Positions 26,539 to 42,923 of a DNA stretch of 64,000 nucleotides are shown here, one piece after another (position 1 is the first letter of the stretch; each line of letters opens with the position of its first letter). The notes beneath the pieces are model-generated. The model was given only the letters and a program-made list of their open reading frames with translations, made no database searches and had not been told where the DNA came from. Both the position numbers and the translations under genes were made by a program. The stretch comes from Peristeroidobacter agariperforans (GTDB taxonomy: Bacteria; Pseudomonadota; Gammaproteobacteria; Steroidobacterales; Steroidobacteraceae), in assembly GCF_004138335.1 (NCBI RefSeq), contig NZ_RYFW01000001.1, positions 2,170,001 to 2,234,000 on the forward strand, in the 5' to 3' direction.

Positions 26539-28653
26539 TCAGTTCTTCAGCCAGCGCGCCAGCCAACGGTGGACTTCGTTGAAGAACTGCCGGCTGTTCT
26601 CGCCTTGCAGGATCCAGTGATTCTCGTCCGGGAAGATCAACAGGCGGCTCTCGACCTGCTGACGCTGCAGCACGCTCCAGTACTCGAGCGTGTTGTTCAT
26701 CGGCACCCGGAAATCGCGCTCGCCCACCGTCACCAGCACCGGCGTCTTCCATTCGGTCGCATAGCGGATGGGATTTTGTTTGTTCCAGTCCACGCCTTCC
26801 TGCCACGGCGGGCCGCCCATGTTCTGCTCGCGCGGATAGGCGATGTCGCTGGTCGCCCACTGGCTTTCCAGGTTGATCAGGCCGGCGTGGCTGATCAGGC
26901 AGCGATAGCGAGTGGTGCTCGCCTGCATCCAGTTCGCCAGATGGCCGCCGTAGCTCGCGCCGCCGGCGCATTGCCGCGTGCCATCGATGAATGAATAGCG
27001 TGCGATCGCTTCGTCCGCGGCTTGATTGATCTCCAGCGCCGGGCCTTGCAGGGGATCGCCTTGAATGGCCTGCGAGAACGCGGCGCCGAAACCGGTGGAG
27101 CCGGAGTAGTTGGTGAGCAGCACGACGTACCCGGGCGCGGCGAGCAGGTGAAAGTTCCAGCGCAGGAAGAACGTATCGCGCCACATGGTGTGCGGGCCGC
27201 CGTGCATCAGGACCAGCAACGGATATTTCTTCGCGGGATCGAAACCGGGCGGGCGGACGATCATGTTGTGGATGCGCGCGCCGCGCTTGCTGTCGAACCA
27301 GAAATGTTCGACCGGCGCCAGATCGAGCTGCGCCATCTTGTCTGCAGTGAAGCGGGTCAGTGCCTGATGATTGCCACGTTGCAGGTCGATGCGCACGACT
27401 TCCGACGGACTGACGGCGCTGTCGAAGTTCGCAATCAACACCGGCGCGCCGGAACGATCGGCGCCCACGAGATTGCCGTATCCGCCAGCCTTCATATCGA
27501 ACGCAAGCGTCGCTTCGCCGCCGCTGCTCTTGCCGCTATAGATTTTCGAATGTCCGGCGTCTTCGGCGAGCAGATAAACGTCGCGGTTGTTGGGCGCGAC
27601 CACGAAGTTCAGGGCGTCCCGCTCGGCGGGCAATGTGATATCGGCGCGGCGCTTCATTGCAGGCCAATCGAAGGACGACAGATGCGTCGGGCCAAATACC
27701 GTCTTGCCGCGCACTTCGCGAAGTACATAAAGAGTGCGGCCGTCAGGACTGAACTCCGGTTCGCTCCAGCCATCGCCGCCTTTCAGATCGTCGCTGCCGG
27801 TCAGACGCTTCGGCTCGCCGCCGCTGACGGCGACCTGCCACAGCTCCGTGTTGGTGAAATCGAAGGCGCCGCGGTTGGCGTTGCGAGAGGCGGCGAAGAT
27901 CAAGCCTTCTCCATCGGGGGTCCACAGCAAATCCAGCTCGCTCGCGCCTTGGGTGCTGCGGCCACCGAAGCCGGGCTGTTTGATCATCTCGGCGCCGGCG
28001 AACAGATCGCGCGCGTCGTTCACACCGATCGTCTGCACAATGGCGTGCGGCTCGCGATTCTCCGGCAGCCACGTGTCCCAATTGCGAATCGGGAAGCCAT
28101 CGTAGGCGCGTACTTTATATTTGCGCGCCTTCTCTTCCGCGACGATGCGCTTGCTGTCCTCGTCGTTGCGGCTTTCCGGCGGCACGTCGCTGGTGAATGC
28201 GATCCTGCGGCCGTCCGGCGAGAACTTCGGCAGCCGCGCGCCGGTGCTGATCGTTGTCGCTCGCAGCGCTTCCCCGCCGCCTTCGATGTCCAGGATATAA
28301 ATTTGATTGACGTCGTCGCCATCGCGCTTCGTGGCGAAGGCAATGCGCTTGCTATCCGCGCTCCAGGCCATGCCTGATTCCGACGCGCGGGTTTGAGTCA
28401 GCCGGCGCGGCGAGCTCTTGCCGTCGGTGGCCACCAGCCATAGGTCGCTCACCTGTTGATCGTTGACGTACGCCGGCTCGGTCACGCTGAACACTGCCAG
28501 CTTGCCGTCGGGACTGACGGCAGGGGCGCCGACTCGTGGCGACAGCCACACATCTTCGTGTGTGATCGCCCGGCGCTCGGCGGCGTACAGCGAGGTGCTC
28601 GCCAGGCCAATCACTGTCAAGGCAATCGCTCGTGCTACGAAGCAGGTACTCAC
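26539..28653 (-). CDS. S9-family prolyl oligopeptidase-like peptidase, secreted
   Basis: This 704-residue peptidase has a signal peptide (AIALTVIGLASTSLYA), a WD/beta-propeller-like middle (repeated SPDG-type motifs such as AVSPDGKLAVF, FSPDGRRIAFTSD, FSPDGRTLYV) and a C-terminal alpha/beta hydrolase. The catalytic Ser is in GGASYGGHLANWM, the Asp in VGERDFRVP and the His in PDENHWIL. It resembles DPP-type/acylaminoacyl peptidases of the S9 family. The start is a GTG with AAGGAG 9 bases upstream. It is divergent from the sigma factor of the lasso uptake genes; it may be unrelated or may help degrade peptides released by the isopeptidase. Confidence 0.88.
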   Translation of the reverse strand: MSTCFVARAIALTVIGLASTSLYAAERRAITHEDVWLSPRVGAPAVSPDGKLAVFSVTEPAYVNDQQVSDLWLVATDGKSSPRRLTQTRASESGMAWSADSKRIAFATKRDGDDVNQIYILDIEGGGEALRATTISTGARLPKFSPDGRRIAFTSDVPPESRNDEDSKRIVAEEKARKYKVRAYDGFPIRNWDTWLPENREPHAIVQTIGVNDARDLFAGAEMIKQPGFGGRSTQGASELDLLWTPDGEGLIFAASRNANRGAFDFTNTELWQVAVSGGEPKRLTGSDDLKGGDGWSEPEFSPDGRTLYVLREVRGKTVFGPTHLSSFDWPAMKRRADITLPAERDALNFVVAPNNRDVYLLAEDAGHSKIYSGKSSGGEATLAFDMKAGGYGNLVGADRSGAPVLIANFDSAVSPSEVVRIDLQRGNHQALTRFTADKMAQLDLAPVEHFWFDSKRGARIHNMIVRPPGFDPAKKYPLLVLMHGGPHTMWRDTFFLRWNFHLLAAPGYVVLLTNYSGSTGFGAAFSQAIQGDPLQGPALEINQAADEAIARYSFIDGTRQCAGGASYGGHLANWMQASTTRYRCLISHAGLINLESQWATSDIAYPREQNMGGPPWQEGVDWNKQNPIRYATEWKTPVLVTVGERDFRVPMNNTLEYWSVLQRQQVESRLLIFPDENHWILQGENSRQFFNEVHRWLARWLKN

Positions 28654-28890: not shown

Positions 28891-29373
28891 ATGGATGTGC
28901 TCTTGAGGCAGCTGCGTGGCCTGAAGAAATTATTGCGCCGGCGCGGCGCTACGCCGGAACAGGCGGAAGACCTGGTGCAGGAAGCGGTGCTACGGCTGCA
29001 CGCTTATACCCGTCAGGGCGGCCAGGTCCAGAATCAGGAAGCGTTCCTGACCCGTACGGCAATCAATCTGTCCGTCGATCAACATCGGCACGCGCGGCTC
29101 GACTGTTACGAGGCCGACCCGATCGAAGATCTCGAGCTGCCCGATCTCGAGCCCACCCCGGATGAGGTTTTTGCCGCTGAGCAACGTCTGATGAGGATGC
29201 GGGATGCGCTCGATCGCGCCAATCCCAGGACACGGGAAGTTTTCTTCATGCACCGTCTCTACGGCTTCAGTCACGCCGAAATCGCGCGCCGCTTGCGAAT
29301 CAGCGTCAGCGCGGTGGAGAAGCATGTTGCGAGCGCCGTTACGATTCTCGCCATCGAACGACAACGAGAATGA
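28891..29373 (+). CDS. ECF RNA polymerase sigma factor, FecI type
   Basis: This 160-residue sigma-70-family protein has region 2 (about 20-85; DLVQEAVLRLHAYTR and AFLTRTAINLSVDQHRHAR) and region 4 (about 105-155; ALDRANPRTREVFFMHRLYG and FSHAEIARRLRISVSAVEKHV). This is a typical FecI-like sigma activated from the cell surface. GAGG is 6 bases before the ATG. Its stop overlaps the FecR-like gene (ATGA). It probably drives the TonB-receptor and isopeptidase genes downstream, and possibly the lasso biosynthesis genes; no promoter could be assigned with certainty. Confidence 0.93.
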   Translation: MDVLLRQLRGLKKLLRRRGATPEQAEDLVQEAVLRLHAYTRQGGQVQNQEAFLTRTAINLSVDQHRHARLDCYEADPIEDLELPDLEPTPDEVFAAEQRLMRMRDALDRANPRTREVFFMHRLYGFSHAEIARRLRISVSAVEKHVASAVTILAIERQRE

Positions 29374-30416
29374 GCCCTACGGAAGCATCAACCAGCCAGA
29401 CCGTGCCGCCGGAGCGACTCGCCGAAGCCAGCGTATGGATCGCGAAGCTGCACGGTGACGCGCGGGGCCGTGCCGTCGAGGATGGTTTGCGCCGTTGGCT
29501 GCACGCGCATCCGGACAATGCACGCGCGTTCGAGCTGGCCACCGAAGTGTGGGAAGAATCCGAGAAGCTGCGCAGTGTCGTGCCGTTTCGCCCGCTCACT
29601 CACGTCGAGCATCGGCCGCGCCGGGGCGGAGCGTTACTGGTCGCGTTCGCCTGCGTGCTGGCGCTGGCCGTCGTCGGAATTGTTTGGTTTCAATACGTGG
29701 GTGTCGTCGCCACTGCGGTCGGGGAGCAGCGCCAGTTGGTACTCGAGGACGGCACTCGCGTATTTTTAAATACGGACACGCACATCGTCGTGAAATATGA
29801 CGAGCGCGCGCGCCGCGTCGAGCTGCGTCGGGGCGAAGCGTTGTTCAACGTCGCCAAGCGCAGCGACTGGCCGTTCATCGTCGTAGCGGGCGATCGCCAG
29901 GTGAAGGCGCTCGGCACTTCATTCGTAGTGCGCAGAGAAGCCGAGCGGCTCGCGGTGACGTTGGTGGAAGGCAGCGTGCTGGTCTCGCCGGTGCTGCCAG
30001 TACAGCCCGAGCAGCCTCACTCGACGATCGATGCGCCGGGCGCGATTGAGCAAACACCCGCGACGACTTCGGAAGCTGGCGGCGGCCAGTTCAAGCTTGC
30101 AGCCGGCCAACGACTCACCTTCAGCAGCGGTGCGGCGACTAAACTCGATACACCCTCCATCGACAAGACGACTGCATGGCGCCGGGGCCAGGTCATATTA
30201 GATGACACGCCGTTGCAAACCGCGGTCGCCGAGATGAACAGATATAACGAAACCAAATTGATCGTTACCGATCCGGCGGCGGCCGCGATTCCCATCAATG
30301 GTTTATTCCAAGCGGGCGACTCCACGCACTTCGCCAACGCTGTCGCACAAGCTTATGGTCTGACAGTCACCACGCGCGGCGATGAGATAGTTCTGTCTGG
30401 CAAACCCGTTCAGTGA
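29370..30416 (+). CDS. FecR-family anti-sigma/sigma regulator
   Basis: This 348-residue inner-membrane regulator has an N-terminal cytoplasmic DUF4880-like region (ASVWIAKLHGDARGRAVEDG and LRRWLHAHPDNARAFELAT), one membrane helix (LLVAFACVLALAVVGIVWF, about 88-106), the FecR periplasmic domain (VLEDGTRVFLNTDTHIVV through VEGSVLV), and a C-terminal STN-like domain (QTAVAEMNRYNETKLIV). FecR proteins receive a signal from the STN domain of a TonB receptor and control FecI. The gene overlaps the sigma gene and precedes the receptor by 99 bases, exactly the expected order. Confidence 0.92.
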   Translation: MSPTEASTSQTVPPERLAEASVWIAKLHGDARGRAVEDGLRRWLHAHPDNARAFELATEVWEESEKLRSVVPFRPLTHVEHRPRRGGALLVAFACVLALAVVGIVWFQYVGVVATAVGEQRQLVLEDGTRVFLNTDTHIVVKYDERARRVELRRGEALFNVAKRSDWPFIVVAGDRQVKALGTSFVVRREAERLAVTLVEGSVLVSPVLPVQPEQPHSTIDAPGAIEQTPATTSEAGGGQFKLAAGQRLTFSSGAATKLDTPSIDKTTAWRRGQVILDDTPLQTAVAEMNRYNETKLIVTDPAAAAIPINGLFQAGDSTHFANAVAQAYGLTVTTRGDEIVLSGKPVQ

Positions 30417-30515
30417 GGATTTCCATCGGCTGCAACGTCGAACTAACGATGTGTCAAAAATCCTGACATTTGTTCAGGACCTGGGGATTGGGGATTCATC
30501 GGTTAGGAGATCACT

Positions 30516-33236
30516 TTGAGCACGAACAATCGGATGTTTCATAGCAGCGCCCGCTGCGCGCCACGCGCAGCAGCACTGACAGGGAGTGTGCTGGCTATTC
30601 TTGCGACTGCAGGCAACGCGCAAGCAATGACTGAATGGGATCTGCCCGAGCAGCCGCTGGCGAAATCGCTGCGGGAGATCGCTGCTCAGACCGACAGCAA
30701 CATCATTTTCGATAAGAAGCTGGTCAACGAACAGTCGGCGCCGCCGCTGAAGATGAAGGCCACGACCGAGCAGGCGTTGAAACAAGTGCTGGAAGGCACC
30801 GGCCTGACTTATCGTCATCTCGACGACAAAACGGTCACGATTCAGCTGGCGAGCACGGATCCTTCGATAACCACCAGTGCCAGCTATGGCGCCGATGGAC
30901 GCATTCGCCTGGCTCAGGCAGAGACCGGCGACACTGGTCGGCGGACCCGCATGGTCGAGGGCAAGCCGCTGCTCGATATCGAAGAGATCATCGTCACGGG
31001 CACGAACATCCGCGGCGTCGAGAACAAAACCGCGCCTGTTCTAGTGCTGTCCAGGGAGTACATCAATTCCACTGGCTTCAGCACCACGACGAAGCTGATC
31101 GAATCGCTGCCGCAGAACTTTGCGCTCGCGAACCAGAGCGGACTGCAATCGAACGGTACGGGCCAAGTCAGCAGTGCCTTTGAACAGGGTTCGTCCATCA
31201 ATCTTCGCGGCATCGGCGAAGGCACCACGCTGGTGTTGTTGAATGGCCGTCGACTGGCGCCCGGCTTTAAATCTGCCGCCGCCGATATCTCCGCGCTGCC
31301 GTTGACCGCGATCGAGCGGGTCGAGATTCTGACCGACGGTGCTTCGGCGATCTACGGTTCCGACGCGGTGGGCGGCGTCGTGAACTTCATTCTCAGAGAC
31401 GACTTTGAAGGGGCTGAAACCCGGCTGCGCGCAGGTTTCGCCGACGGCACCGATGAGTACCGGGTGAGTCAGGCGCTGGGCAACTCCTGGGATTCGGGCA
31501 ACGTCCTGCTGTCCCTGGAGTATTACCAGCGGGACGAGTTGCTCACGAGCGATCGTGACTACATTCCCGCCAATGTCGCGGCCCCCGGGCTGTTGCCGGA
31601 AGAGGAGAATTACTCGGCGGTCTTCACCGGTGAGCAGCAGCTCTCCGGATCGATTACCGCGTTTGCCGACGTGCTCTTCTCGCAGCGCGATAGTTTCAAT
31701 CGGGCAGGGCGCGTTACGCCTCTGTTCAACGAAACGCCTAACAACGTGGACAATCCCCAGCTCAATGCGACGCTGGGGCTGAACTTCGCGCTGGGTGGGG
31801 ACTGGCAGCTCGAGCTGTCCGGCTCGTTTGGCAGCAACGATCTCGAAGTGGTACGGGGAGGGGGCACCCTCGGACAGGCTTCGTTCGATTCGAAGTTCGA
31901 GAGCGAGGCGGGCAGAGTCAAGGCGGACGGTACGGTGCTCGGTTTGCCAGGCGGCAACATGCGCATGGCCATTGGCGCCGATTATCGTTCCGAGACCTAT
32001 GAGGATATGAACGCACTCGGCGGCATGCTCATCAGCAGCACCGACACGGATCAGGACGTTAGTTCGGCGTTCGCCGAGCTGTACATTCCGCTGGTCGGCG
32101 ATCCCAATGCGGTGGCCGGAGTGCAAAGGCTCGAGGTGTCGCTGGCCGGACGCTACGACGACTATTCGAGCTTCGGTTCTTCCTTCGACCCGCAGTACGG
32201 CTTGATGTGGGAGCCGGTCGGCGGGCTGCGTCTGCGCGCCAGGTACGGCACCTCATACAAGGCGCCGAACCTGATCGAATACAGCTTCGGCACCAATTCC
32301 GGCGCGGCAGTTCTGGCGCAGGACCCGCTGGCGCCGGGCGGCTTCAACTACCAGCTGCAGGTCAGCGGCATCGACGTGAATGGCTTGCAACCCCAGGAGT
32401 CGACCAGTTCCTCGTTCGGCCTGGAGTTCACTCCGGAAGCGGTCAAGGGCCTGGCCGTGAACCTCAACTACTACCAGATCAGGTATCGCAACCGGATCAC
32501 CAATCCACCGTTGCCTTCGGTGACGCTCGGCGATGCGGCCTCCTTCGGCAGCCTGTTCATTCGCAATCCGACGGTCGATCAGGTCAATCAGTTCATCGCG
32601 ATCGCCCAGCTCGGCCCGGTGGGCTTCATCCCGCTCAGCCCGATCGACTTCACTTTCGATCCGAATTTCGACCCGGCGTCGATCGATGTCATCGTGGACG
32701 GCAGGCGGCGCAACCTGAGCCTGGTGGACACCAACGGCGTGGATTTCTCCACGCGCTACGATTTCGGCGTTGGCTCGTCCAATGTCGCCCTCGGCATCGA
32801 CGCGACCTACGTGCTGCAGATCGAGCAGCAGATCACCACGACGAGCGCGCCGTTTGAAACGGACGATACATTCGGCAATGCGCCGAACTTGCGCATGCGA
32901 GCGATGGCCAGCTGGCAGCGCGGTGGATGGAGCACGAATGCGTTCGTGAACTACACCGATTCGTATACGGACAATCGATTGATGATCCCGGTGTCGGTCG
33001 ACGCCTATACGACGGTGGATGCACGCGTGGCCTATTCCTTCTCGAATCGATTCAGCAGCGGGTTCCTGTCTGGAGTGACGGTGGGCGCCAGCGTGCTGAA
33101 CCTGTTGGATGAGGATCCGCCGAGCACGCAAGTGATCTCTCCTCCGGGCTCGCCTGGTTTCGACCTGGGCTTCGATCCTACCAACGCCAGTCCGCTGGGC
33201 CGTTTCATCGCATTGGAGTTTACCAAGACGTGGTAA
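30516..33236 (+). CDS. TonB-dependent receptor with STN signalling domain (lasso-peptide locus)
   Basis: This 906-residue outer-membrane receptor has a signal peptide (ALTGSVLAILATAGNAQA), an STN domain (about 45-110; QPLAKSLREIAAQTDSNIIF), a TonB box-like region with IEEIIVTGTNI, a plug (about 165-290; STTTKLIESLPQNF, NGRRLAPGF, SIYGSDAVGGVVNFI-type) and a 22-strand barrel ending in FIALEFTKTW, an aromatic terminus. The start is a TTG with GGAG 6 bases upstream. Its STN domain should contact the FecR protein. Position next to an Atxe2-type isopeptidase indicates the lasso peptide as ligand; a siderophore-like ligand is the alternative. Confidence 0.92.
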   Translation: MSTNNRMFHSSARCAPRAAALTGSVLAILATAGNAQAMTEWDLPEQPLAKSLREIAAQTDSNIIFDKKLVNEQSAPPLKMKATTEQALKQVLEGTGLTYRHLDDKTVTIQLASTDPSITTSASYGADGRIRLAQAETGDTGRRTRMVEGKPLLDIEEIIVTGTNIRGVENKTAPVLVLSREYINSTGFSTTTKLIESLPQNFALANQSGLQSNGTGQVSSAFEQGSSINLRGIGEGTTLVLLNGRRLAPGFKSAAADISALPLTAIERVEILTDGASAIYGSDAVGGVVNFILRDDFEGAETRLRAGFADGTDEYRVSQALGNSWDSGNVLLSLEYYQRDELLTSDRDYIPANVAAPGLLPEEENYSAVFTGEQQLSGSITAFADVLFSQRDSFNRAGRVTPLFNETPNNVDNPQLNATLGLNFALGGDWQLELSGSFGSNDLEVVRGGGTLGQASFDSKFESEAGRVKADGTVLGLPGGNMRMAIGADYRSETYEDMNALGGMLISSTDTDQDVSSAFAELYIPLVGDPNAVAGVQRLEVSLAGRYDDYSSFGSSFDPQYGLMWEPVGGLRLRARYGTSYKAPNLIEYSFGTNSGAAVLAQDPLAPGGFNYQLQVSGIDVNGLQPQESTSSSFGLEFTPEAVKGLAVNLNYYQIRYRNRITNPPLPSVTLGDAASFGSLFIRNPTVDQVNQFIAIAQLGPVGFIPLSPIDFTFDPNFDPASIDVIVDGRRRNLSLVDTNGVDFSTRYDFGVGSSNVALGIDATYVLQIEQQITTTSAPFETDDTFGNAPNLRMRAMASWQRGGWSTNAFVNYTDSYTDNRLMIPVSVDAYTTVDARVAYSFSNRFSSGFLSGVTVGASVLNLLDEDPPSTQVISPPGSPGFDLGFDPTNASPLGRFIALEFTKTW

Positions 33237-35476
33237 CCCGCTCTTGTGTCGGCCGTGACGCTCGCGTCACGGCCGGTTGGCTTCTTGCCATGTCGCTGTC
33301 CCTCCAGGCCGTCGCAATGACGGCCTGGAGCCAGTCCTCCAATCACCAAACCGCATCGCTGACCATCCCGCAGGTGGCGGACGGCCCGAAGCGGCTCATC
33401 ACGACGGATGATCTCATCGCGTTGCGCGATATCGATTCCTTCAGCCTCTCGCCCGACGGAAAAAAATTCGCGGTGTTGATACGCCAGGCGGATCCGGTCG
33501 CGAACGACTATCGCACCGGATGGTTCATCGGTTCGACCGACGATGGCGCGCTGACCGCCGCGGGTGATGGCGGCGAAGCGCGGTTGACCATAGGCGTGAC
33601 TGGCAGACGCGGAGGGGAAATCGCCGGTTCGCCAAGTCGCTGGTCAGCCGACGGTCAGTGGATCGCCTATACCGTGCAGCGGGATGGCGAAGTACAGCTT
33701 TGGCGCAGCAGCGTCGACGGCAAGGTTCAGCAGCAGCTCACTCGCAACGATGCAGATGTGCGCGATTTCGTCTGGAGCGAAGACGGGCGCACTTTGCTCT
33801 TTACTGTCGGCAGCACTCGCGCATCACAGCGCGCTCGCGACGAACAAGGTCGCCGCGATGGATTCCGGCTGGATGAGTTTCAGTTTTACACCGAGGTCAT
33901 CCACCGAGCGGCCCCCGAACGGCCCGTCGAGACCGATCTGACCGTCTGGGCCGTCGCCAGCAACGGCCATGACGAACGCGTGGCGGATGCCGCCGGGAAG
34001 AAACAATTCGAGGAAGGGGTGCGGCGCGGTTGGTCTTGGGGCCGCGACCGTTCGCAACCGCCGAAGATCGAGGAGTTGGGAGGCTCGGCTGCGCCGCCGG
34101 TCGTCGGCAAGAATGGCGTTCTAGCCTGGCTCGCCCGCGTCGACCCCTCGGAGCGCGGCATTTTGCCGAGGCTACGTTTGACGGCCTCGTTACGCCCTGA
34201 TGGTTCGCAGCCAATCGCGTGTACCGCTGACGAATGTACCGCGCAGTTCTTTTCCAAAGTCTGGTGGAGCGAGGACGGCAGGCAGGTCATCTTCTGGCGG
34301 GAAGAGGGCATCAATCTCACCGACCAGGGGTTCTATTCATGGACTCCAGCGAGCGGTGTCGTGAAGCCGCTATGGCGTGTCTTGGGTGACCGTTTCAAGG
34401 AGTGCGAACTGCTGGGGCGGCGGCTGATCTGCGTGCGCGAAACGCGAACTCAGCCCGCGCACATCGCCAGCATCGACACCCGCGCCGGGCGCGTTTCGGT
34501 TCTGGCAGATTTCAATCCCGAATTCAAAAATCTGCGCTTGCCCAGGATCGAACGTTTCGAGTGGGATGCGCCGCCGGACACCGTGGGTTTGGGCTATCCC
34601 AAGCGAGCTTTCGGCTACATCGTCTATCCGCCGGACTTCGATCCGAAGAAGAAGTATCCGGTGATCATTTCCCCGTATATGGCGCACGGTTTCATTCGAG
34701 GGGATGTGGGCGACGAGCAGCCGCTGCTGGCTTATGCAGCTAACGGCTTCGTTGTTCTTGACACGGGCTTTCCCTACCCGATGGGCGATATCGGGGCCGC
34801 GGACTCAGACACCCTGTTCGAGAAGATGCATTCCGCCGAGCTTGGGTTTCCCAACATGACCATGCTCCTGGAATCGACGATGCGTGCCTTGGACGCAGCC
34901 GTGGCGCGCGGGTGGGTCGATAGCAGCCGCGTGGGCATGGGTGGATTGAGTCAGGGAACGTTCGCGTCTCTGTACGCGCTGCAGAAGTACGATCGTTTGT
35001 CCGCGGTTTCAGTGAGCGGGCCAGGTTGGTCGCAGATCGAGTACTACCTCATAACGAGCCACGGACTCGCCACGATGGAGCGGGCGGGAATAAGCTGGAA
35101 ATTTCCCGAGTCCGTCGAGTACTGGAGGCAGGTCGATCTCGCCGACCACCTCGATTCGATCGAAGCGCCGATCCTGATGCACATCGCAGATCGAGAGTCA
35201 GCCGGCATCATGCGCCTGCAACGCCGGCTGAGCGATGCGAAGAAAGCTTTCGAGGCATTCATCTTCCCGGACGAATACCACGAGAAGTGGCAGCCGGCGC
35301 ATCGCTACGCCATCTACAATCGCAATCTCGATTGGTATCGGTTCTGGCTGCAGGACTACGAAGATCCGAGCGGGGCCAAGGCCGACCAGTATCGACGCTG
35401 GCGAGCGCTGCGCGATCTGCAGTGCCTCAATCCGCGTTCGCTCCGCGCCTATTGCGCTGACAACGACAAGGAGTGA
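33230..35476 (+). CDS. Atxe2-family lasso-peptide isopeptidase (S9-like)
   Basis: This 748-residue protein has a signal peptide (core GWLLAMSLSLQAVAMTAW), a beta-propeller region and a C-terminal alpha/beta-hydrolase domain. Catalytic Ser574 is in GGLSQG, Asp654 in HIADRESAG, and His684 in FPDEYHEKWQPAHR, the pattern of Atxe2-type enzymes. These cut the lactam of a lasso peptide and release the linear chain. The GTG start at 33230 overlaps the receptor stop, implying coupled translation after receptor synthesis. Its 3' end overlaps the convergent cyclase gene by 28 bases. It should act on imported peptide in the periplasm. Confidence 0.9.
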   Translation: MVTRSCVGRDARVTAGWLLAMSLSLQAVAMTAWSQSSNHQTASLTIPQVADGPKRLITTDDLIALRDIDSFSLSPDGKKFAVLIRQADPVANDYRTGWFIGSTDDGALTAAGDGGEARLTIGVTGRRGGEIAGSPSRWSADGQWIAYTVQRDGEVQLWRSSVDGKVQQQLTRNDADVRDFVWSEDGRTLLFTVGSTRASQRARDEQGRRDGFRLDEFQFYTEVIHRAAPERPVETDLTVWAVASNGHDERVADAAGKKQFEEGVRRGWSWGRDRSQPPKIEELGGSAAPPVVGKNGVLAWLARVDPSERGILPRLRLTASLRPDGSQPIACTADECTAQFFSKVWWSEDGRQVIFWREEGINLTDQGFYSWTPASGVVKPLWRVLGDRFKECELLGRRLICVRETRTQPAHIASIDTRAGRVSVLADFNPEFKNLRLPRIERFEWDAPPDTVGLGYPKRAFGYIVYPPDFDPKKKYPVIISPYMAHGFIRGDVGDEQPLLAYAANGFVVLDTGFPYPMGDIGAADSDTLFEKMHSAELGFPNMTMLLESTMRALDAAVARGWVDSSRVGMGGLSQGTFASLYALQKYDRLSAVSVSGPGWSQIEYYLITSHGLATMERAGISWKFPESVEYWRQVDLADHLDSIEAPILMHIADRESAGIMRLQRRLSDAKKAFEAFIFPDEYHEKWQPAHRYAIYNRNLDWYRFWLQDYEDPSGAKADQYRRWRALRDLQCLNPRSLRAYCADNDKE

Positions 35477-37380
35477 GGCGTGGCGGCGGTCCGGGCGATC
35501 CTGGTCCACTTCTGTAACCAGGCTTCCGCCGCCAGATAACTCAACAGGATTGGGGCAGGGACCGTGAGCGAAGGCTCCGGCGCGCCGAGGCACGCATCGA
35601 GCCGGCCACGGTCCAGGTAGCCCTCTTTCACCAGCAAGCCCTCGAGCAACTGCTCCCGAAGCAACGCTCGATTGCGCTTGACGATTTGCTGATAGAACGA
35701 ACTGCCCGTGCCCTTGACCTGGCGTTTGCGGATCTCGGCGGGCAGCAGATCGGCGAAAGCGCGCCGTGCCAGCCCGCGACTTATGCCGCCGGTGAGCATC
35801 GTGCTGGTCGGAATCCGCAACGCCGTCTCCCATACTGGCTGAGCGTTCAGCGGATCGATGTGGTCAGTGTATCTGCCGCTGTCGAAAACGAAATCGTACC
35901 AAGCCGACCAGGTCAGGCCTTTGGCGTGATCCTTCTTGCCGGGAGGCAGCGATGAGCGCGAAATTCGTTTCGACTGCTCGCTTTCGAAATCCTGATTGCT
36001 CAGGCCTGCGGTAAGTTCGGCGCTCACCAGCGTCGGCAGATTCGAAATCGCGAAAGGACTGACATAGGGACGACGTAGCAGGCCGTGGTGAACGGTCTTG
36101 CCGAACACGGACCATACCGAGTCCTTGCTGAGCCGGGAGGTCGCGAGGATCTGTTCCCAGAGGCCGGGCCTCAAGCCGTGGAGGTACGCCTGGTCCATGG
36201 CTGGCAGGGGCTGGACGGTGGCTTGGAATACCGAGTCGCCCGCTTGCCCCGAAAAGAACGCCTGAGTCCCGCGGCTCTTGATCAGGTCGAGCAGGATGTC
36301 TTCCATCTCCATCACAGTGAAATACAGGTTGGGGCTGACCGTCGGTGCGGTGTCCCAAATCCTTGTCAAATCCAGGGCGAGCTCTCGCTGCCGTTCGATC
36401 AGCTCGGTTCGCCATCGTTCGGCCACCAAGCGAGCGAAGTGCCTTTCGTCTCCAGTTCCAATGATCGCGCGAACTTTCTCCGTGGTCCGCCGGTCTATGC
36501 CCGGCATCGCCACCTTCTCCTGGCTCGAACCGAGATCAATGCAGACGTTCAGATAGCTGATCCGCGCTGGCGACGCTGCGTGCGCCAGACATCCTGCGAC
36601 GATGGAAGAGTCGAGTCCGCCGGAAAGCCGCAGTGTGATGCTCTCGTAGCAGGAGGCCCATGCATTGACGGTGTCCTGTACGGCTGCGCGCAGCGCAGTT
36701 GCGGCTGCATCCAACTGCTCGAGGTCCCTCGTGCTCGCGATCGCGATCGGATCCCACAATACGGAGCGCGTCATGCGTCCCTGGGAGAATGTGAGGCGAT
36801 CTCCGGCCGGCACGGGCGCCACGCCCTCGAGGCCAGTCGCTTCGAGCGTCAGGTTGCCGAACATCAGCCAGCGAGCGAGAAACTGACGATTGACGCTGTA
36901 GCGGATCGGCAGCAGGCGAACGCAATCGTCGATGTGAGAAAAGAAGATGTCGACGCCTTTAAAGTGCGTGTGATAGCCGGGCATGTTGCCGAGCGGATCG
37001 CGGAACACGTGATACTTGGCCGCGGTCGCCTCATGAACGATGGCGAAGTATGTGCCCCAGTAGCGATCGACCAGATGCTGGCCGCCGCTATCGATGATCC
37101 CGGCAGCCGCCGCGCCATCCAGAACGATCTGCGAAGCGCTCGTGTAGTCGCCATGACGACGGTCGAAGATTCTTCCCAGTACGACGCCGCCGCCGTGGGG
37201 CAATGGATACGCTTCGGCCGCACCCCGCCGCATTCCAGTGTGCATCACGAACATTCCCGATGCGTCGCAGGCGGTGACCCACCCGGCGGGTTTGGTGCTG
37301 CTACTCAGGCCGAAAGATTGAAATGTTCGCACGCTCTCGAGATTGAGCGGATCCCAGAGCAGGGCGAGATAGCGCTGCAT
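35449..37380 (-). CDS. Lasso peptide cyclase (asparagine-synthetase-like C protein)
   Basis: This 643-residue homologue of asparagine synthetase B adenylates the ring Glu/Asp carboxylate so that the N-terminal amine of the core can form the macrolactam. The ATP pyrophosphatase loop is SGGLDSS (about 253-259), with a later conserved Asp in GQAGDSVF. The N-terminal glutaminase-like part lacks Cys2 (it starts MQRYLALLW), as in other lasso C proteins. AAGGA lies 7 bases before the ATG and the B gene ends 33 bases upstream. The assignment is supported by the precursor and B genes next to it. Confidence 0.92.
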   Translation of the reverse strand: MQRYLALLWDPLNLESVRTFQSFGLSSSTKPAGWVTACDASGMFVMHTGMRRGAAEAYPLPHGGGVVLGRIFDRRHGDYTSASQIVLDGAAAAGIIDSGGQHLVDRYWGTYFAIVHEATAAKYHVFRDPLGNMPGYHTHFKGVDIFFSHIDDCVRLLPIRYSVNRQFLARWLMFGNLTLEATGLEGVAPVPAGDRLTFSQGRMTRSVLWDPIAIASTRDLEQLDAAATALRAAVQDTVNAWASCYESITLRLSGGLDSSIVAGCLAHAASPARISYLNVCIDLGSSQEKVAMPGIDRRTTEKVRAIIGTGDERHFARLVAERWRTELIERQRELALDLTRIWDTAPTVSPNLYFTVMEMEDILLDLIKSRGTQAFFSGQAGDSVFQATVQPLPAMDQAYLHGLRPGLWEQILATSRLSKDSVWSVFGKTVHHGLLRRPYVSPFAISNLPTLVSAELTAGLSNQDFESEQSKRISRSSLPPGKKDHAKGLTWSAWYDFVFDSGRYTDHIDPLNAQPVWETALRIPTSTMLTGGISRGLARRAFADLLPAEIRKRQVKGTGSSFYQQIVKRNRALLREQLLEGLLVKEGYLDRGRLDACLGAPEPSLTVPAPILLSYLAAEAWLQKWTRIARTAATPHSLSLSAQ

Positions 37381-37413
37381 GGCCGTGTCCTTGGCGGTTG
37401 CGCGTGCCTGGCT

Positions 37414-38103
37414 TCAGACTGTCATGATGGGAGTGAAGCCGGCTGCCGTTTCCACGTCTTCGTTGAAAATGAACTGTCCCTGCTGCACCCAGCAGTGCGC
37501 GTTCCACGGTTCGAGCCGGACCGCGAACATCCAGGTGGGAAAAATCCGGTAGCGGGCGAGAAATTCGAGCAGGGCGAGCGAGTCGAACAGGCAGAGATAG
37601 TCGCGCGGGAACAAAGATCTGAGAGTTTGAAACGCCGCTGTCAGCTCGCGAGCCGCGTTGACGTCGAACGTGCCGTTCGAGTTGTAACGTGCTTTGCGCA
37701 GCTCCACGGCTTTGACGGTCTTGTCGATGCGTTGCCAGCGAAGTCGCGCTGCTGCGGTAGTGCATGCGGCAATGAACTTGTAGAAGTGCGAGATGCGCAG
37801 GCGTACTCGCGGCACGGCTTCGGGATCGATCAAGGGTTCCATCGCCACTTCCGCCTGTGTCGGGCGGATGCTCTTGCCCTGGCTCGGATCGGTGACCAGC
37901 AGTCCGCCCGCCAGCAGTTCCTGCAAAGCATCGGCGGCTTCCGGCTTCGACTCGTCCAGTCGTCCGCTCGGAGCGAGTGCCTGCAAGGCCGCCGCAGTCG
38001 CTCCGTTGATCAGCATGTAGTCGTCCTGCTTCAGGTCGAGAAACACAAGGTCATCGCCACGCTGGCAAAAGTGGACGTGCGGCGGAAGAAAATATTCGGC
38101 CAT
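37414..38103 (-). CDS. Lasso peptide B protein (RRE fused to leader peptidase)
   Basis: This 229-residue protein is a fused B1-B2. Residues ~1-80 form a PqqD-like RiPP recognition element (FCQRGDDLVFLDLKQDDYML) that binds the leader. Residues ~95-229 are a transglutaminase-like cysteine protease with Cys171 (DYLCLFDSL), His203 (WNAHCWVQ) and Asp216 (FNEDVE), the triad expected for leader removal. I use the ATG at 38103 (AGG 6 bases upstream); a TTG two codons earlier is the alternative. It lies between the precursor gene (97-base gap with a strong hairpin) and the cyclase. Confidence 0.93.
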   Translation of the reverse strand: MAEYFLPPHVHFCQRGDDLVFLDLKQDDYMLINGATAAALQALAPSGRLDESKPEAADALQELLAGGLLVTDPSQGKSIRPTQAEVAMEPLIDPEAVPRVRLRISHFYKFIAACTTAAARLRWQRIDKTVKAVELRKARYNSNGTFDVNAARELTAAFQTLRSLFPRDYLCLFDSLALLEFLARYRIFPTWMFAVRLEPWNAHCWVQQGQFIFNEDVETAAGFTPIMTV

Positions 38104-38135
38104 GAGCAACCTGCGCGAGAGTGCCGTCCTGGCGA

Positions 38136-38169
38136 GCGGGGCGCGCTGCTGTAGAGCAGTGCGCCCCGC
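38136..38169 (-). promoter_or_regulatory. Strong hairpin between lasso precursor and B genes
   Basis: Bases 38136-38150 and 38155-38169 form a 15-bp stem (one G-T wobble position) around a 4-base loop. A second small stem GTTGGC/GCCAAC lies at 38181-38195. There is no U-run. Such hairpins downstream of lasso A genes are thought to stabilise or partly terminate the short precursor mRNA, giving more A than B and C. Confidence 0.75.
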
Positions 38170-38200
38170 CCGATCTCGTTGTTGGCAATGCCAACCGGGA

Positions 38201-38293
38201 TTACATCGGATACTGGAACTGGGAGACGCTCTCTCCCACGATCACGACCTTCACGCCCTTGGTTTCCTTAGACACTTTTCCCAGCTTGACCAT
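38201..38293 (-). CDS. Lasso peptide precursor (A protein), 30 residues
   Basis: The reading frame encodes a 12-residue leader MVKLGKVSKETK and an 18-residue core GVKVVIVGESVSQFQYPM. The leader has the LGK...T-K pattern with Thr at position -2 that lasso peptidases require. The core begins with Gly and has Glu at position 9, giving a predicted nine-residue Gly1-Glu9 lactam. Phe14 and Tyr16 are plausible steric plugs. AAGGAG lies 7 bases before the ATG. The gene is directly upstream of B and C. It was found inside a longer open frame that I reject. The leader is shorter than in most described precursors; the identity as a lasso precursor is strong, the fold and ring size are predictions. Confidence 0.9.
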   Translation of the reverse strand: MVKLGKVSKETKGVKVVIVGESVSQFQYPM

Positions 38294-38733
38294 GTTGCTA
38301 CTCCTTTGCTTGCTGCCACCCGTCATGGATGGCGCGCAGAGGATGTTTGCAAAAGTCATCCGGCTACAAGCCCCGGCACCGCTGCAGAGGTCCTTTCGGC
38401 GGGATATTACGAACCATTGGGCGAACCCCTGGACACCCATCGCCCCCGAATGCATGAGCGTATTACCGCCGGATGTATGCTCGTGTGCATCGCTGCGCTA
38501 CAAGGTCAAATGTCTGACAGCACGTCCGCTTACGACATTAACCGAGATGAATTTCACGTTGCGCCCGATGACTGTCGCGTCCCGCCCGGATTGGCTTCGT
38601 GCAGTGGGGGTGCTTCACGCTCCACTGACGATGGTGACAGTCTTTGATTATTTGCATTCACTTGCTCGCGTTTACTGCCGCCCGGGTCTGTGCTACCTGT
38701 CATTGGCTCTGATGCATCGACAAGGAGCGATCG
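38294..38733. other. Divergent intergenic region between lasso precursor and NIS-like gene
   Basis: About 440 bases between two divergent start codons. It must hold the promoters for the minus-strand lasso genes and the plus-strand ligase gene. Base composition is less GC-rich than the flanks near 38505-38680. I could not assign -35/-10 boxes with confidence. It contains one short plus-strand frame (38510-38647) listed separately at low confidence. Confidence 0.6.
38510..38647 (+). CDS. Possible 45-residue small protein (doubtful)
   Basis: A short frame starting MSDSTSAYDINRDEFHVAPD and containing two cysteines, rich in Asp and Ser, lies 86 bases before the NIS-synthetase-like gene. AAGG precedes the ATG by 4 bases. 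Its third codon positions are much less GC-rich than those of neighbouring genes, which argues against it; this could also reflect foreign or non-coding DNA. I list it because small substrates are easily missed next to an orphan ligase. No similarity is recognised. Confidence 0.22.
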   Translation: MSDSTSAYDINRDEFHVAPDDCRVPPGLASCSGGASRSTDDGDSL

Positions 38734-40050
38734 ATGTCAGCCCTGCCCATCCACGATCAGGACGTCATCGGTCAATTGCCGCCCGGTTTGCAGCAATGGC
38801 TGGCGCTGGAGCGCTTTCATCTGCACAAGGTGGATCTGTTCCAGAACAGGTCCCGCGATCCCGCCTTCGATCCGCGGTACTTGCCCCAGAATTGCGGCGC
38901 TTTCAGGTTGTCCTGCTTCTGGATACGGCGCAGATATCTTCAGGTTTATGGCGGGCAAGCTGCGGGCGGCGGCGAATTGCAACTGTTCTCCGGCCAGGGT
39001 TTGGACGAGCGTGTGCTGTTCCCGATTCATCCATCGTCCCTGGATCACTACAGAAAGTTCCTGTCAGATGTGGATGCCGTGGAGGCGTCGAAGCAGGGCG
39101 CGTGCATCTGGGCCGTACCGACGTCGAGTACCAGGACTCTGTTGGCATGGCACGATCAGGCGCCGGCTACAGCGGTTTTCGTCAAGACATCGCTGCGGTC
39201 TCCGATGTTCGGGGACCGACGCCTGTACCTGAAAACAGTCGGCCGCAGCGTGGGCTTCTCCGGGCTCATGCAAAGTGCGCGAGCGGATCTTCCGGCCACA
39301 TTGGACTATCTGCCGGAGTCGGTAGGCTTTGTGCCGCGATCGTTGCCGGATAGCGGCGCCATCGTTCGCTCGATACCCGAAGAGATCAAGCAAGGCCGGA
39401 TCCTGGTCGCTCCGGTGTTTTCATTGCTAGGCGGCAGTGGCTCTCGCGTGCCACTGTTGCTGACTCTGCTCGAACGCAGCGGCATGCCGCCGCGGCAACT
39501 GGTGGAGGAGGTGCTCTGCGCCCCATTCGCCAGGTTATGGTTGGGGATGAGTCTGCGCCTTGGCTTGATACTGGAGGCTCATGCCCAAGATCTCATGCTG
39601 ATGCTGGCCCCGGACCTGACTCCGCTGGGCCGCTTTCTTTACAGAGATTTTGAAGGCCTGCAGGTGGATTGGGAGTTGCGCCGGCGGTGCGGGCTGCAGT
39701 CGCCGGCTGATATGCCGCACGCCTGGTCCTGGCGCGAGACCTACGACGCCTGGGGTTATCCCTACAGCGAATTCGTCTGGTACAAGTGGCGGATCAGCCT
39801 GTTCAACTATCTTCATTTCATCCTCGCCGACGTAGAAGCGTCATTGCGCGGGTGGCACGAACGAGGGCTGATCGGCGACTGGCAGTGTGAGCCAGATGAG
39901 GTGACCCTGATCTTCTCCCATCACCTGTTCAAGGCGCTCGAGCAGATGTTAGGCATTCGAGTAAAAGCGAAATACAACGTCTATCGCCACCTCCATCGAT
40001 TCTTGTTGCTGCTGCTGGATGTGCGGAAAGAATTGCTCGGCGGGAAATAA
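38734..40050 (+). CDS. Shortened IucA/IucC-family (NIS synthetase-like) ligase
   Basis: This 438-residue protein resembles the C-terminal two-thirds of NRPS-independent siderophore synthetases. These adenylate a carboxylate and transfer it to an amine or alcohol. Visible landmarks in order are FPIHP (96-100, cf. PVHPWQ), TSSTRTL (130-136, cf. the ATP-binding S-x-RT), EAHAQ (281-285, cf. EAHxQN), RDFEG (304-308) and KAKYN (411-415). The N-terminal region with the HPxHPxxK citrate/dicarboxylate motif of ~600-residue enzymes is missing. AAGGAG sits 6 bases before the ATG. No other siderophore gene is near; it is divergent from the lasso precursor. A lasso-tailoring or siderophore-related role is possible; function unknown. 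Confidence 0.75.
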   Translation: MSALPIHDQDVIGQLPPGLQQWLALERFHLHKVDLFQNRSRDPAFDPRYLPQNCGAFRLSCFWIRRRYLQVYGGQAAGGGELQLFSGQGLDERVLFPIHPSSLDHYRKFLSDVDAVEASKQGACIWAVPTSSTRTLLAWHDQAPATAVFVKTSLRSPMFGDRRLYLKTVGRSVGFSGLMQSARADLPATLDYLPESVGFVPRSLPDSGAIVRSIPEEIKQGRILVAPVFSLLGGSGSRVPLLLTLLERSGMPPRQLVEEVLCAPFARLWLGMSLRLGLILEAHAQDLMLMLAPDLTPLGRFLYRDFEGLQVDWELRRRCGLQSPADMPHAWSWRETYDAWGYPYSEFVWYKWRISLFNYLHFILADVEASLRGWHERGLIGDWQCEPDEVTLIFSHHLFKALEQMLGIRVKAKYNVYRHLHRFLLLLLDVRKELLGGK

Positions 40051-40195
40051 CGGCTGCTGTGCTAGCACGAAAGATGTGACATTTGCTTGAGGTTTTTGCT
40101 GAGCTGCCACGTCTGAATAAGAGATTGCCCGGCGCGAGCGCACGACTCGGAGCCTCGATTCAGTCCATATAGTGGTAAGTAGCAAGGTCCGGCCA

Positions 40196-40672
40196 ATGAG
40201 CACGGCAGACGCCATTCCTTCCACGCCTGTTTCCATGCCCGGCCTGGCCGCCCGGGTCTTGGCAAGCCTGTCCACGTCCACTCGGGAGGAGCTTTGCGAG
40301 CACGCCGCGGACTGCTCATCCAGGCTGCGCGTTACGCTGGAAACGCTGTTCGTGAATCGTTTCGGCGGTCACCACGAGGGGTTCGAGCGGCTGCGGTTTC
40401 TGTTCTTCGTGGCGCCGCTGGTGCGTCGGCTGGTGATCGGCTCGGCCAATCTGAACCAGCGGGTGCGCGGCACCGAGGTGACCTTCGCCGACGTGAAAGC
40501 CTGGATCGCCTGGCTGGACGCCATGGACCCGCTGTGTGCCCGCATGATCGACCTGCGCTACTTCGCCGGCGTCAGCGTCAAGGAAACGGCCCGCCTGCTG
40601 GATCTGCGCCCTGACGCGGTGGTCCGCGAGCTGCGCTTCGCCCGGGCCTGGCTGAACATCAAGGTGTCCTGA
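40196..40672 (+). CDS. ECF-type sigma factor-like regulator
   Basis: This 158-residue protein resembles the ECF sigma subgroup. The C-terminal part shows a region-4 helix-turn-helix (LDAMDPLCARMIDLRYFAG and VSVKETARLLDLRPDAVVRE). The N-terminal part is region-2-like but weak. The start is the ATG at 40196 (AAGG 8 bases upstream). There is no adjacent anti-sigma; the next gene is a metallophosphoesterase 75 bases on. Whether it binds core polymerase is unknown. Confidence 0.68.
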   Translation: MSTADAIPSTPVSMPGLAARVLASLSTSTREELCEHAADCSSRLRVTLETLFVNRFGGHHEGFERLRFLFFVAPLVRRLVIGSANLNQRVRGTEVTFADVKAWIAWLDAMDPLCARMIDLRYFAGVSVKETARLLDLRPDAVVRELRFARAWLNIKVS

Positions 40673-40747: not shown

Positions 40748-41923
40748 GTGCACGCGGCTGGAGCGGACTCCTTGCGACGCGGTTTCCTGATGATGCTGGG
40801 CCTGCTCGGCCTGTTGCATGTATACATTGGCGTGCGGCTGTTGCCGGCCCTGTCCATCGGCGGGGTCGGCCAGGTCATCGGTGCGCTGCTGCTCCTCGCG
40901 TCCTGGATCGTGATCCCGATGGGGCTCACGGCGCGCTCGAGGCAAACGAATACCGACGGCGCCGATGCTTTGCTATGGACCGCGCTCATCGCGATGGGGC
41001 TGTTCTCGTCTTTGTTTGTATTCACCCTGTTGCGCGATCTGGCTTTGCTGATCGCGGCGTTGTTCACGCCCGCGGCGGCTGCCGCACGATTGCAAAACGC
41101 ATCTGCATGGATTGTCGTTAGCGCCGCGGTGCTCGCGACGCTGATTGGATTCAGCAACGCGCGTCGCGTGGCGCGCGTCGTTCACGTCGATGTGCCCATC
41201 GCCAATTTGCCGCCGGCGCTGCACGGTTTCTCGATCGCACAGATCAGTGATGTTCACGTCGGCCCGACGATCCGTCGCCACTACGTCGAAGGCATCGTTG
41301 CCGCAGTCAACCGATTGGACGCCGACGCGATCGCCATCACCGGCGACCTGGTCGACGGCAGCGTGCGAGAGCTGGCAGCGCACGTCGAACCATTGGCGCA
41401 GCTGCGCGCCAGATACGGAACATTCTTCGTCACGGGCAATCACGAGTATTACTCCGGCGAGCGCGCATGGACGAGAGAGCTGCGTCGTCTCGGCATGCGC
41501 GTACTCATGAACGAACATGTGGTCGTCGATCACAACGCGGCCAGGCTGGTGATCGCGGGCGTGACGGATTTCAGTGCGCATCACTTCGATCCTGCCAATC
41601 GCAGCAATCCGGCCGCGGCGCTCACCGATGCGCCGTCGGATGCGGGAGCGAAGATATTGCTTGCGCATCAGCCGCGCTCGGCGCCTCAAGCGGCGGCGGC
41701 AGGATTCGATCTACAACTGTCCGGGCACACGCACGGCGGTCAATTCTGGCCGTGGAATTTCTTTGTTCGCTTACAGCAGCCATTTACCGCGGGATTGGAT
41801 CGGCTCGACTCGCTATGGGTCTACACCAGCCGGGGCACAGGCTATTGGGGACCGCCAAAGCGCTTCGGTGCGCCGTCGGAGATTACGCGGATCAGGTTGA
41901 TCGCGTCGATTGGCGAATCATGA
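40748..41923 (+). CDS. Membrane-anchored metallophosphoesterase
   Basis: This protein of up to 391 residues has four N-terminal hydrophobic helices (about residues 14-130) and a calcineurin-like phosphoesterase domain. The metal-binding motifs are QISDVHVG, ITGDLVD, VTGNHEYY and SGHTHGGQFWP. This is the YkuE-like layout, some members of which act on lipid A precursors or other phosphoesters; the substrate here is unknown. The GTG at 40748 gives the longest frame, and an ATG at about residue 15 is also possible. The 3' end overlaps the convergent lacI-type gene by 32 bases. Confidence 0.87.
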   Translation: MHAAGADSLRRGFLMMLGLLGLLHVYIGVRLLPALSIGGVGQVIGALLLLASWIVIPMGLTARSRQTNTDGADALLWTALIAMGLFSSLFVFTLLRDLALLIAALFTPAAAAARLQNASAWIVVSAAVLATLIGFSNARRVARVVHVDVPIANLPPALHGFSIAQISDVHVGPTIRRHYVEGIVAAVNRLDADAIAITGDLVDGSVRELAAHVEPLAQLRARYGTFFVTGNHEYYSGERAWTRELRRLGMRVLMNEHVVVDHNAARLVIAGVTDFSAHHFDPANRSNPAAALTDAPSDAGAKILLAHQPRSAPQAAAAGFDLQLSGHTHGGQFWPWNFFVRLQQPFTAGLDRLDSLWVYTSRGTGYWGPPKRFGAPSEITRIRLIASIGES

Positions 41924-42923
41924 GTTTCGCCGGGATGGTGTGACTCTGCACCGGCTCGTCCTGAATCAACGCAAGCAGGCTCTCGACCAGAAACGTCGCT
42001 GCTGCCTTCGTATCCTGTTGCACGGTCGTGAGGCTGGGGTTGGTGAAGCTCGCGATGGGAATATCATCGAAGCCTGCTACAGCGACGTCCTGCGGCACTC
42101 GCACGCCGCGGTCCACCAACGCGCGCATTGCGCCGATCGCAATCAAGTCGCTCGCGCAGAACAACGCATCGAATGAAATACCGCGCTCGATGAGCGCGTT
42201 TACCGCGTCGTAGCCGGCGCGCTCGGTCGTGAACGCATCGATCTGCAGTCCGGGTTGCACTGGCACGCCGGCGTTTCGCAGCGATTCCGAATAGCCTTTG
42301 TATCTTTCCAGGAACTCCGGATAGTGCTCGGACGCGTGCCCGATGAACGCGATGTTGCCTCGGCCTTGTTCGAGCAAATGACGCGTCATGTCGCGGCCGC
42401 CCTGGAAGTTGTCGCAGCCGATCGTCACGCCGGGCTGGCCGGGCAGCACGACACCCCAGCGCACGAAGTGCGTGCCTTGCTCGACGAGCAGCTCCAGGCG
42501 CGAGACGTATTCGAGATAGTCGCCGTAGCCCAGCAGGATCAGACCGTCGGCCTTCTTGCTGTCCTCGTATTCGACGTGCCAGTTGCTGGACAGCTGCTGG
42601 AACGAGATCAGTAGGTCATAGCCCTGCACGGCGCAGGCGCGAGTCAACGAGCCGAGCATGGACAGGAAGAACGGATTGATCAGCGAGTCGTCCTGCGTCG
42701 GGTCTTCGAAGAACAGCAGCGCCAGCGTGCCGGACTGCTGATTGCGCAGGTTGGAGGCGTTCTTGTCGACCTTGTAGTTGAGCTCGTGGGCGATTTGCAG
42801 GATGCGCTGGCGCGTCTGCTCATTGACTGTCGGGCTGCCACGCAAGGCGCGCGACACGGTGGGCTGCGACACACCCGCCCGATAGGCAATGTCGAAGGAC
42901 GTGGCTTTACCTTTTCCGCGCAT
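41892..42923 (-). CDS. LacI-family transcriptional regulator
   Basis: This 343-residue repressor has an N-terminal LacI HTH ([20 protein letters not shown], about 7-26) with hinge, and a periplasmic-binding-protein-like ligand domain ([43 protein letters not shown]). It lies 63 bases downstream of nagA on the same strand, so it probably belongs to the GlcNAc operon. That operon also encodes a GntR-type regulator. The ligand is likely GlcNAc-derived; that is inference. Confidence 0.88.

Follow-up and report, generated by a model that had tools for sequence, protein, structure and literature searches.

The stretch of DNA analyzed here, hereafter the window, comprises 64,000 nucleotides of the Peristeroidobacter agariperforans genome (NCBI RefSeq assembly GCF_004138335.1, contig NZ_RYFW01000001.1, positions 2,170,001 to 2,234,000 of the forward strand). 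To judge from its sequence, it almost certainly holds a lasso-peptide gene cluster with an isopeptidase (window positions 28891-38293), beside which lies a gene resembling the synthetases of nonribosomal peptide synthetase-independent siderophores (NIS). The precursor gene A (38201-38293), the gene for the leader protease B (37414-38103; 229 amino acids), with a presumed leader-binding element fused to it, and that for the lasso macrolactam synthetase C (35449-37380; 643 amino acids) follow one another on the minus strand and face the gene for an Atxe2-family lasso isopeptidase, E, on the plus strand (33230-35476; 748 amino acids), the 3' end of which shares 28 bases with that of C. A Pfam scan identified, also on the plus strand, a TonB-dependent outer-membrane receptor with an STN domain (30516-33236), a FecR-type anti-sigma regulator (29370-30416), and a FecI-type extracytoplasmic function (ECF) sigma factor (28891-29373). 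The NIS-synthetase-like (IucA/IucC-like) gene (38734-40050, plus strand; 438 amino acids), for which the role of a tailoring ligase is proposed below on the grounds of profile homology and linkage, is divergent from A, and the region between the two (38294-38733), 80.9% identical to that of Steroidobacter agaridevorans, is presumed to contain both promoters. The first-pass annotation of this DNA had described A, B, and C in order on the minus strand with the isopeptidase facing them, and both this gene order and the lasso reading are upheld. The extent it gave is right for the A-B-C-E part, and the cluster is longer on both sides, by the FecI, FecR, and receptor genes (28891-33236) and by the NIS-synthetase-like gene (38734-40050). 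An Atxe2-family isopeptidase, a TonB receptor, and a sigma/anti-sigma pair are the hallmarks of isopeptidase-type clusters, and all of them are present. The arrangement is more than chance, because it is syntenic in three other genomes of the genus and the same A with its divergent NIS-like gene occurs in four genomes of another genus, three of which also have B and C within the stretch examined.

Lasso precursors follow a simple rule, with a Thr at leader position -2, the amine of residue 1, and an Asp or Glu at positions 7-9. The A gene encodes 30 amino acids, namely a 12-residue leader and an 18-residue core (MVKLGKVSKETK|GVKVVIVGESVSQFQYPM), and AAGGAG precedes its ATG. Thr(-2), Gly1, and Glu9 agree with the rule, and the core register proposed earlier is borne out by translation, as are the masses of the unmodified peptide upon recalculation (linear 1966.023 Da, cyclic 1948.013 Da, [M+H]+ 1949.020, [M+2H]2+ 975.014). 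Seven related loci have homologues of A with leaders of equal length. These loci and the window share the divergent NIS-like gene and are referred to as linked; the leader is 12 residues long in all eight linked precursors and 12-13 residues long in 21 of 50 unlinked ones. A longer leader, begun at one of the in-frame ATGs upstream (-11, -22, -49, and -54 in the window), was considered and rejected, as both the Shine-Dalgarno sequence and the homology begin at the ATG of the 12-residue leader. Three of the eight related A genes (L050, L066, and L067) have no in-frame upstream start, so that the short leader is forced there. A 2026 review gives the leader length of lasso peptides as 20-40 residues (PMC13352647), and no earlier description of leaders this short was found in the part of the literature covered.

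The protein products of the cluster match known lasso families to different degrees. B scores 60.5 bits with the lasso B2 model NF033537 (cut-off 33) and also matches Transglut_core3. Its catalytic residues had been given as Cys171, His203, and Asp216; across seven aligned B proteins, the first two are invariant and Asp216 is not conserved. The N-terminal part of B, which we take as the fused leader-binding element, is present and aligned in all seven, and no Pfam or NCBIfam model (PqqD-like leader-binding) matched it. C contains SGGLDSS, as stated earlier, and has Gln as residue 2 and thus no Cys2; it belongs to the Asn synthase family (PF00733, 82 bits), and its scores with the lasso cyclase models of NCBIfam stay below cut-off. 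The assignment of E as an Atxe2-type isopeptidase was confirmed by NF033523 (521 bits; cut-off 400), with AtxE2 as the best solved relative (E = 1.6e-75, PDB).

Of 217 Steroidobacteraceae genomes searched, 10 have the NIS-like protein, and wherever the flanks can be read (8/8) the divergent neighbor of its gene is a lasso A gene; in G176 and G318 the NIS-like gene is cut by the contig end. Apart from the window, the linked loci are those of S. agaridevorans (L004, genome G396), S. gossypii (L005, genome G235), G397 (L066), G196 (L050, equal to L036), G307 (L059, where the contig ends after A), G319 (L067), and G309 (L068). The nearest named loci are those of S. agaridevorans, with B about 94-95% identical, and S. 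gossypii, with B 56% identical. Synteny holds across the four Steroidobacter loci. The G196 copy lies among genes that differ from the window flanks, which means that A and the NIS-like gene are linked as a unit in two genomic settings. It is therefore highly probable that the NIS-like gene belongs to the lasso cluster. In a wider search, the NIS-like family was detected in 1 of 369 genomes of the class and 5 of 398 genomes of the phylum (the own genome counted in each); the four further phylum matches (L125-L128) are weak (E = 7e-8 to 5.5e-5), and their linkage was viewed within short loci. A single-sequence search of same-order genomes outside the family yielded no NIS-like gene.

The cores of the linked precursors were then compared. 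They begin with GVKVVIVGE, GVKVVVASE, TGKDSIFTE, DTKFLTDPE, GVKLVGSPE, STKSGTIPE, SGKIGPLAE, and NAKISFTPE. Lys3 and Glu9 are fixed in all eight, whereas the remaining 15 columns, of 17 tabulated, hold between three and eight residue types apiece. When columns 3 and 9 are excluded, the mean pairwise identity of the linked cores is 17%, against 71% for the leader. At the DNA level, the core of the window is 51.9% identical to that of S. agaridevorans, compared with 94.4% for the leader and 91.4% for B. The aliphatic run in the ring, singled out earlier as unusual, is shared in part only by S. agaridevorans (GVKVVVASE) and G196 (GVKLVGSPE) among the eight; the constants of the ring are instead Lys3 and Glu9. 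The constancy of Glu9 is expected from its role as ring acceptor. We know of no role for Lys3 in lasso closure, so a residue as constrained as Glu9 calls for another reason, and the linked ligase is a natural candidate. Lys3 occurs in 8 of 8 linked precursors and in 2 of 50 unlinked precursors of the order (Fisher's exact test, 2e-8, a value that overstates independence, because the linked clusters form one clade and not eight independent events). The count is based on 95 B-bearing loci scanned for the precursor motif (six of them repeats), which gave 59 distinct candidates chosen by motif; about 30 loci gave none and lie outside the count, as do L123, L124, and some B matches (mostly partial, and G167:C82), which were not scanned. 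Two candidates were left out, L099 as not a precursor and L118 for its unclear register, neither of them with Lys3, and L059 was added by hand.

By its sequence, the open reading frame (ORF) at 38734-40050 is a shortened homologue of the NIS siderophore synthetases (IucA/IucC) that retains their core motifs and lacks their N-terminal part. The profile of its family was compared by hhalign with an alignment built from the NIS synthetases L125, L126 (96% identical to L125), and L127, giving a probability of 98.6% and an E value of 7e-16; L125 and L127 themselves match solved NIS synthetases (E = 5e-25 and 2e-86, PDB). A five-member profile searched against the PDB had the aerobactin synthases IucC (E = 0.007) and IucA (E = 0.02) as best matches, both weak. 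The residues common to six family members and L125/L127 include H99-P100, P129-T130, S132, R134-T135, K151, R212, E281, H283, Q285, and R304-D305, and the surroundings of the PTSSTRT, FVK, EAHAQ, and YRDFEG motifs are kept in the NIS-like family. These motifs presumably line the ATP site. A stand-alone NIS siderophore pathway was also considered and rejected, given that the own genome has no PF04183 match; this search did not register the window's own gene either, and it shows only that no ordinary IucA/IucC gene was found.

Leader removal, ring closure at Glu9, uptake by a receptor, and opening by an isopeptidase are established for lasso systems. We propose, with a confidence just short of an even chance, that the cluster makes a lasso peptide, that a dedicated NIS-type ligase acylates its ring residue Lys3, and that this peptide is re-imported by the receptor and opened by the isopeptidase. 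A would be made with its 12-residue leader, B would cut after Thr(-2)-Lys(-1), and C, by homology to known lasso chemistry, would join Glu9, through its side chain, to the alpha-amine of residue 1. The NIS-like enzyme would activate a carboxylic acid with ATP and attach it to Lys3 at the side-chain amine; that the enzyme acts on Lys3 is a tentative assignment, which could well prove wrong. Analogy with IucA/IucC leads us to guess at a citrate-like acid, and we regard a polycarboxylate as a doubtful suggestion. Once decorated, the lasso would exit the cell, take up iron or some other cargo, come back through the TonB receptor under the control of FecI/FecR, and be opened by the isopeptidase. 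In its most specific form, the proposal describes a lasso siderophore, in which an NIS-type ligase puts a metal-binding polycarboxylate on Lys3, the cluster's own receptor retrieves the peptide, and the isopeptidase releases the cargo; this form we consider unlikely. If the NIS-like gene does tailor the peptide, the true product mass is not 1948.0 Da, and the absence of a 1948.0-Da peptide would wrongly discredit the cluster.

A number of observations weigh against the idea that the NIS-like enzyme acylates Lys3, and several of them speak for its main rival, an ordinary isopeptidase-type lasso peptide of unmodified mass 1948.013 Da, with the NIS-like gene as a linked passenger or the source of something unrelated, and Lys3 kept as a feature that the cyclase, the receptor, or the isopeptidase recognizes. 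Every core gene of the cluster is standard. The eight linked clusters form one clade in a tree of 88 B proteins (support 99/97), which indicates one origin of the association, and Lys3 and the NIS-like gene are perhaps merely co-inherited. L007 and L020, which are sister clusters, carry Lys3 without the NIS-like gene, and in G309 the NIS-like frame has stops and Lys3 is kept. The N-terminal part of the NIS synthetases and the GHPxHPxxK motif, both found in L125 and L127, are missing from all six aligned family members, and the enzyme may therefore be inactive or unable to bind citrate. Furthermore, the NIS-like protein scores 19.6 bits with the Pfam model IucA/IucC, below the cut-off of 25, and it has no match in the NCBIfam library and none in a single-sequence PDB search; a structure prediction from three sequences (window, L004, and L005) reached a mean predicted local distance difference test score (pLDDT) of 38.6 and was not used. 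What the ordinary peptide leaves unexplained is the position of the NIS-like gene beside A at all eight readable loci, across two genomic settings, the retention of its core motifs, and its divergence in S. gossypii, which is about that of the lasso genes (identity to the window of 51% for the NIS-like protein, 56% for B, 47% for C, 44% for E, and 60% for the receptor, against 88-92% for LacI, NagA, and FecI). This divergence-rate argument is not clean, since other S. gossypii flanks are intermediate (FecR 68%, a 166-aa ORF 70%, an S9 peptidase 77%, a phosphoesterase 83%) and the contrast with S. agaridevorans is small, the NIS-like protein (89%) and B (94%) being barely more diverged there than some flanks (91-100%). 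On balance, we judge the ordinary lasso peptide to be fairly unlikely, and to deserve serious weight.

Two further explanations were considered. The NIS-like protein could take part in self-protection or folding, with acylation of Lys3 keeping the peptide harmless to its producer, much as Lys acetylation confers self-resistance in triculamin and lariocidin (PMC13352647). A Pfam search for an ABC exporter among the ten neighbors scanned found none, which would fit this idea; the known case of albusnodin, however, uses an acetyltransferase and not an NIS-type ligase (PMC8498205), and the peptide is one without known antibacterial activity, so that self-protection appears improbable. Alternatively, C or the NIS-like ligase could close the ring between the side-chain amine of Lys3 and Glu9; residues 1-2 would then form a free N-terminus, and the mass would equal that of closure through the alpha-amine. 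Such closure would explain a variable residue 1 beside fixed Lys3 and Glu9. Among unlinked relatives that do not have Lys3, however, residue 1 is widely variable as well, and in metanodin, a peptide of the same order, the ring is closed at Asn1 (PMC12670498). We regard closure through Lys3 as very improbable. Acylation of Lys3 by the linked NIS-type ligase, followed by re-import and opening, is the reading that we prefer.

Residue 1 of the eight linked cores is G, G, T, D, G, S, S, and N. Before metanodin, which has Asn1 and comes from the same order, residue 1 of lasso peptides had been Gly, Cys, Ser, or Ala (PMC12670498); residue 1 of the linked cores is freer than in the lasso peptides known until then. 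Lys, Arg, His, or Asp is predicted as residue 1 at the unlinked loci L109, L111, L113, L115, and L122, and the order seems to tolerate many first residues. The own genome, 7.65 Mb in size, has a second lasso B gene away from the window. The second lasso cluster of this genome (L003; C9, near 2576102-2576824) has the precursor ...ETK|QYGAYPQTFDSIFVLGERVP, with Gln1 and the first Asp/Glu at position 10. It is one of a group of six related precursors within the genus (L003, L072, L073, L075, L085, and L086) with Gln1 or Glu1, and Asp10; their rings would have ten residues, provided that the register is set by Thr(-2). At L118, the possible precursor is a 61-residue ORF with two leader-like motifs.

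Other features of these loci were also observed. The intergenic region between A and B (38104-38200, minus strand) contains a strong hairpin by RNA folding (z = -4.45 for the folded segment 38104-38203, -4.70 in L004, and -3.89 in L005), which perhaps tunes A against B and C. Next to FecI lies a second S9-type peptidase-like ORF (26539-28653, minus strand; 704 amino acids), syntenic in S. agaridevorans, S. gossypii, and G397. A 166-aa ORF (40172-40672, plus strand) lies 3' of the NIS-like gene and shows a weak likeness to ECF sigma factors, below the cut-off. The G196 cluster (L050, 13521-18579) has tandem isopeptidase-like genes of 828 and 835 amino acids, and L067 and L068 have one such gene each; in the G196 genes, the best-matching stretch covers no more than the C-terminal half of the Atxe2 model and scores about 146 bits against a cut-off of 400.

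Among known systems, the clusters of astexin-2/-3, sphingopyxin, and benenodin resemble that of the window, with A, B, and C facing the isopeptidase gene E, followed by the TonB receptor and the sigma/anti-sigma pair, and with no ABC exporter (in the window, among the neighbors scanned). The window differs from them in its 12-residue leader and invariant Lys3. Isopeptidase clusters have been described as similar to siderophore systems, with a GntR-like gene preceding A and an enigmatic function for which a siderophore-like role was suggested (PMC9266682). In contrast to the clusters of that account, the gene before A in the window is NIS-synthetase-like; no GntR-fold family was matched by Pfam in the ten proteins scanned, among which the nearest regulator is LacI-type (41892-42923). 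Metanodin (PMC12670498) likewise comes from a Steroidobacterales lasso cluster with an isopeptidase, allows a residue 1 beyond Gly, and has a precursor overlooked by automatic tools; it has Asn1, whereas the window peptide has Gly1. The L003 cluster with its Gln1 may be nearer to metanodin than the window cluster is, since the second-best match described in PMC12670498 has Gln at position 1.

With the NIS siderophore synthetases (IucA/IucC, AcsD, DesD, and DfoC), the NIS-like protein shares the profile match and the core motifs. It differs in its length (438 amino acids, against 576-787 in the solved NIS synthetases), in its missing N-terminal part, and in being tied to a ribosomal peptide. 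Acylation of a Lys amine on a lasso peptide, as proposed here, has parallels in albusnodin, where an acetyltransferase modifies the Lys (PMC8498205), and in triculamin, a Lys-acetylated lasso peptide (PMC13352647). No report of an NIS synthetase paired with a lasso peptide was found in searches of open-access literature, in which survey-like papers containing both terms were judged by their titles and the starts of their abstracts. As far as we have seen, the window cluster is new, and its novelty lies in the linked NIS-like gene and the matching Lys3. If the proposal is true, the NIS-like protein would represent a new kind of enzyme for the tailoring of ribosomally synthesized and post-translationally modified peptides (RiPPs) and would tie the metabolite worlds of RiPPs and siderophores to each other. 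A siderophore-synthetase homologue and an invariant Lys inside an isopeptidase cluster make the siderophore-like role suggested for such clusters experimentally approachable.

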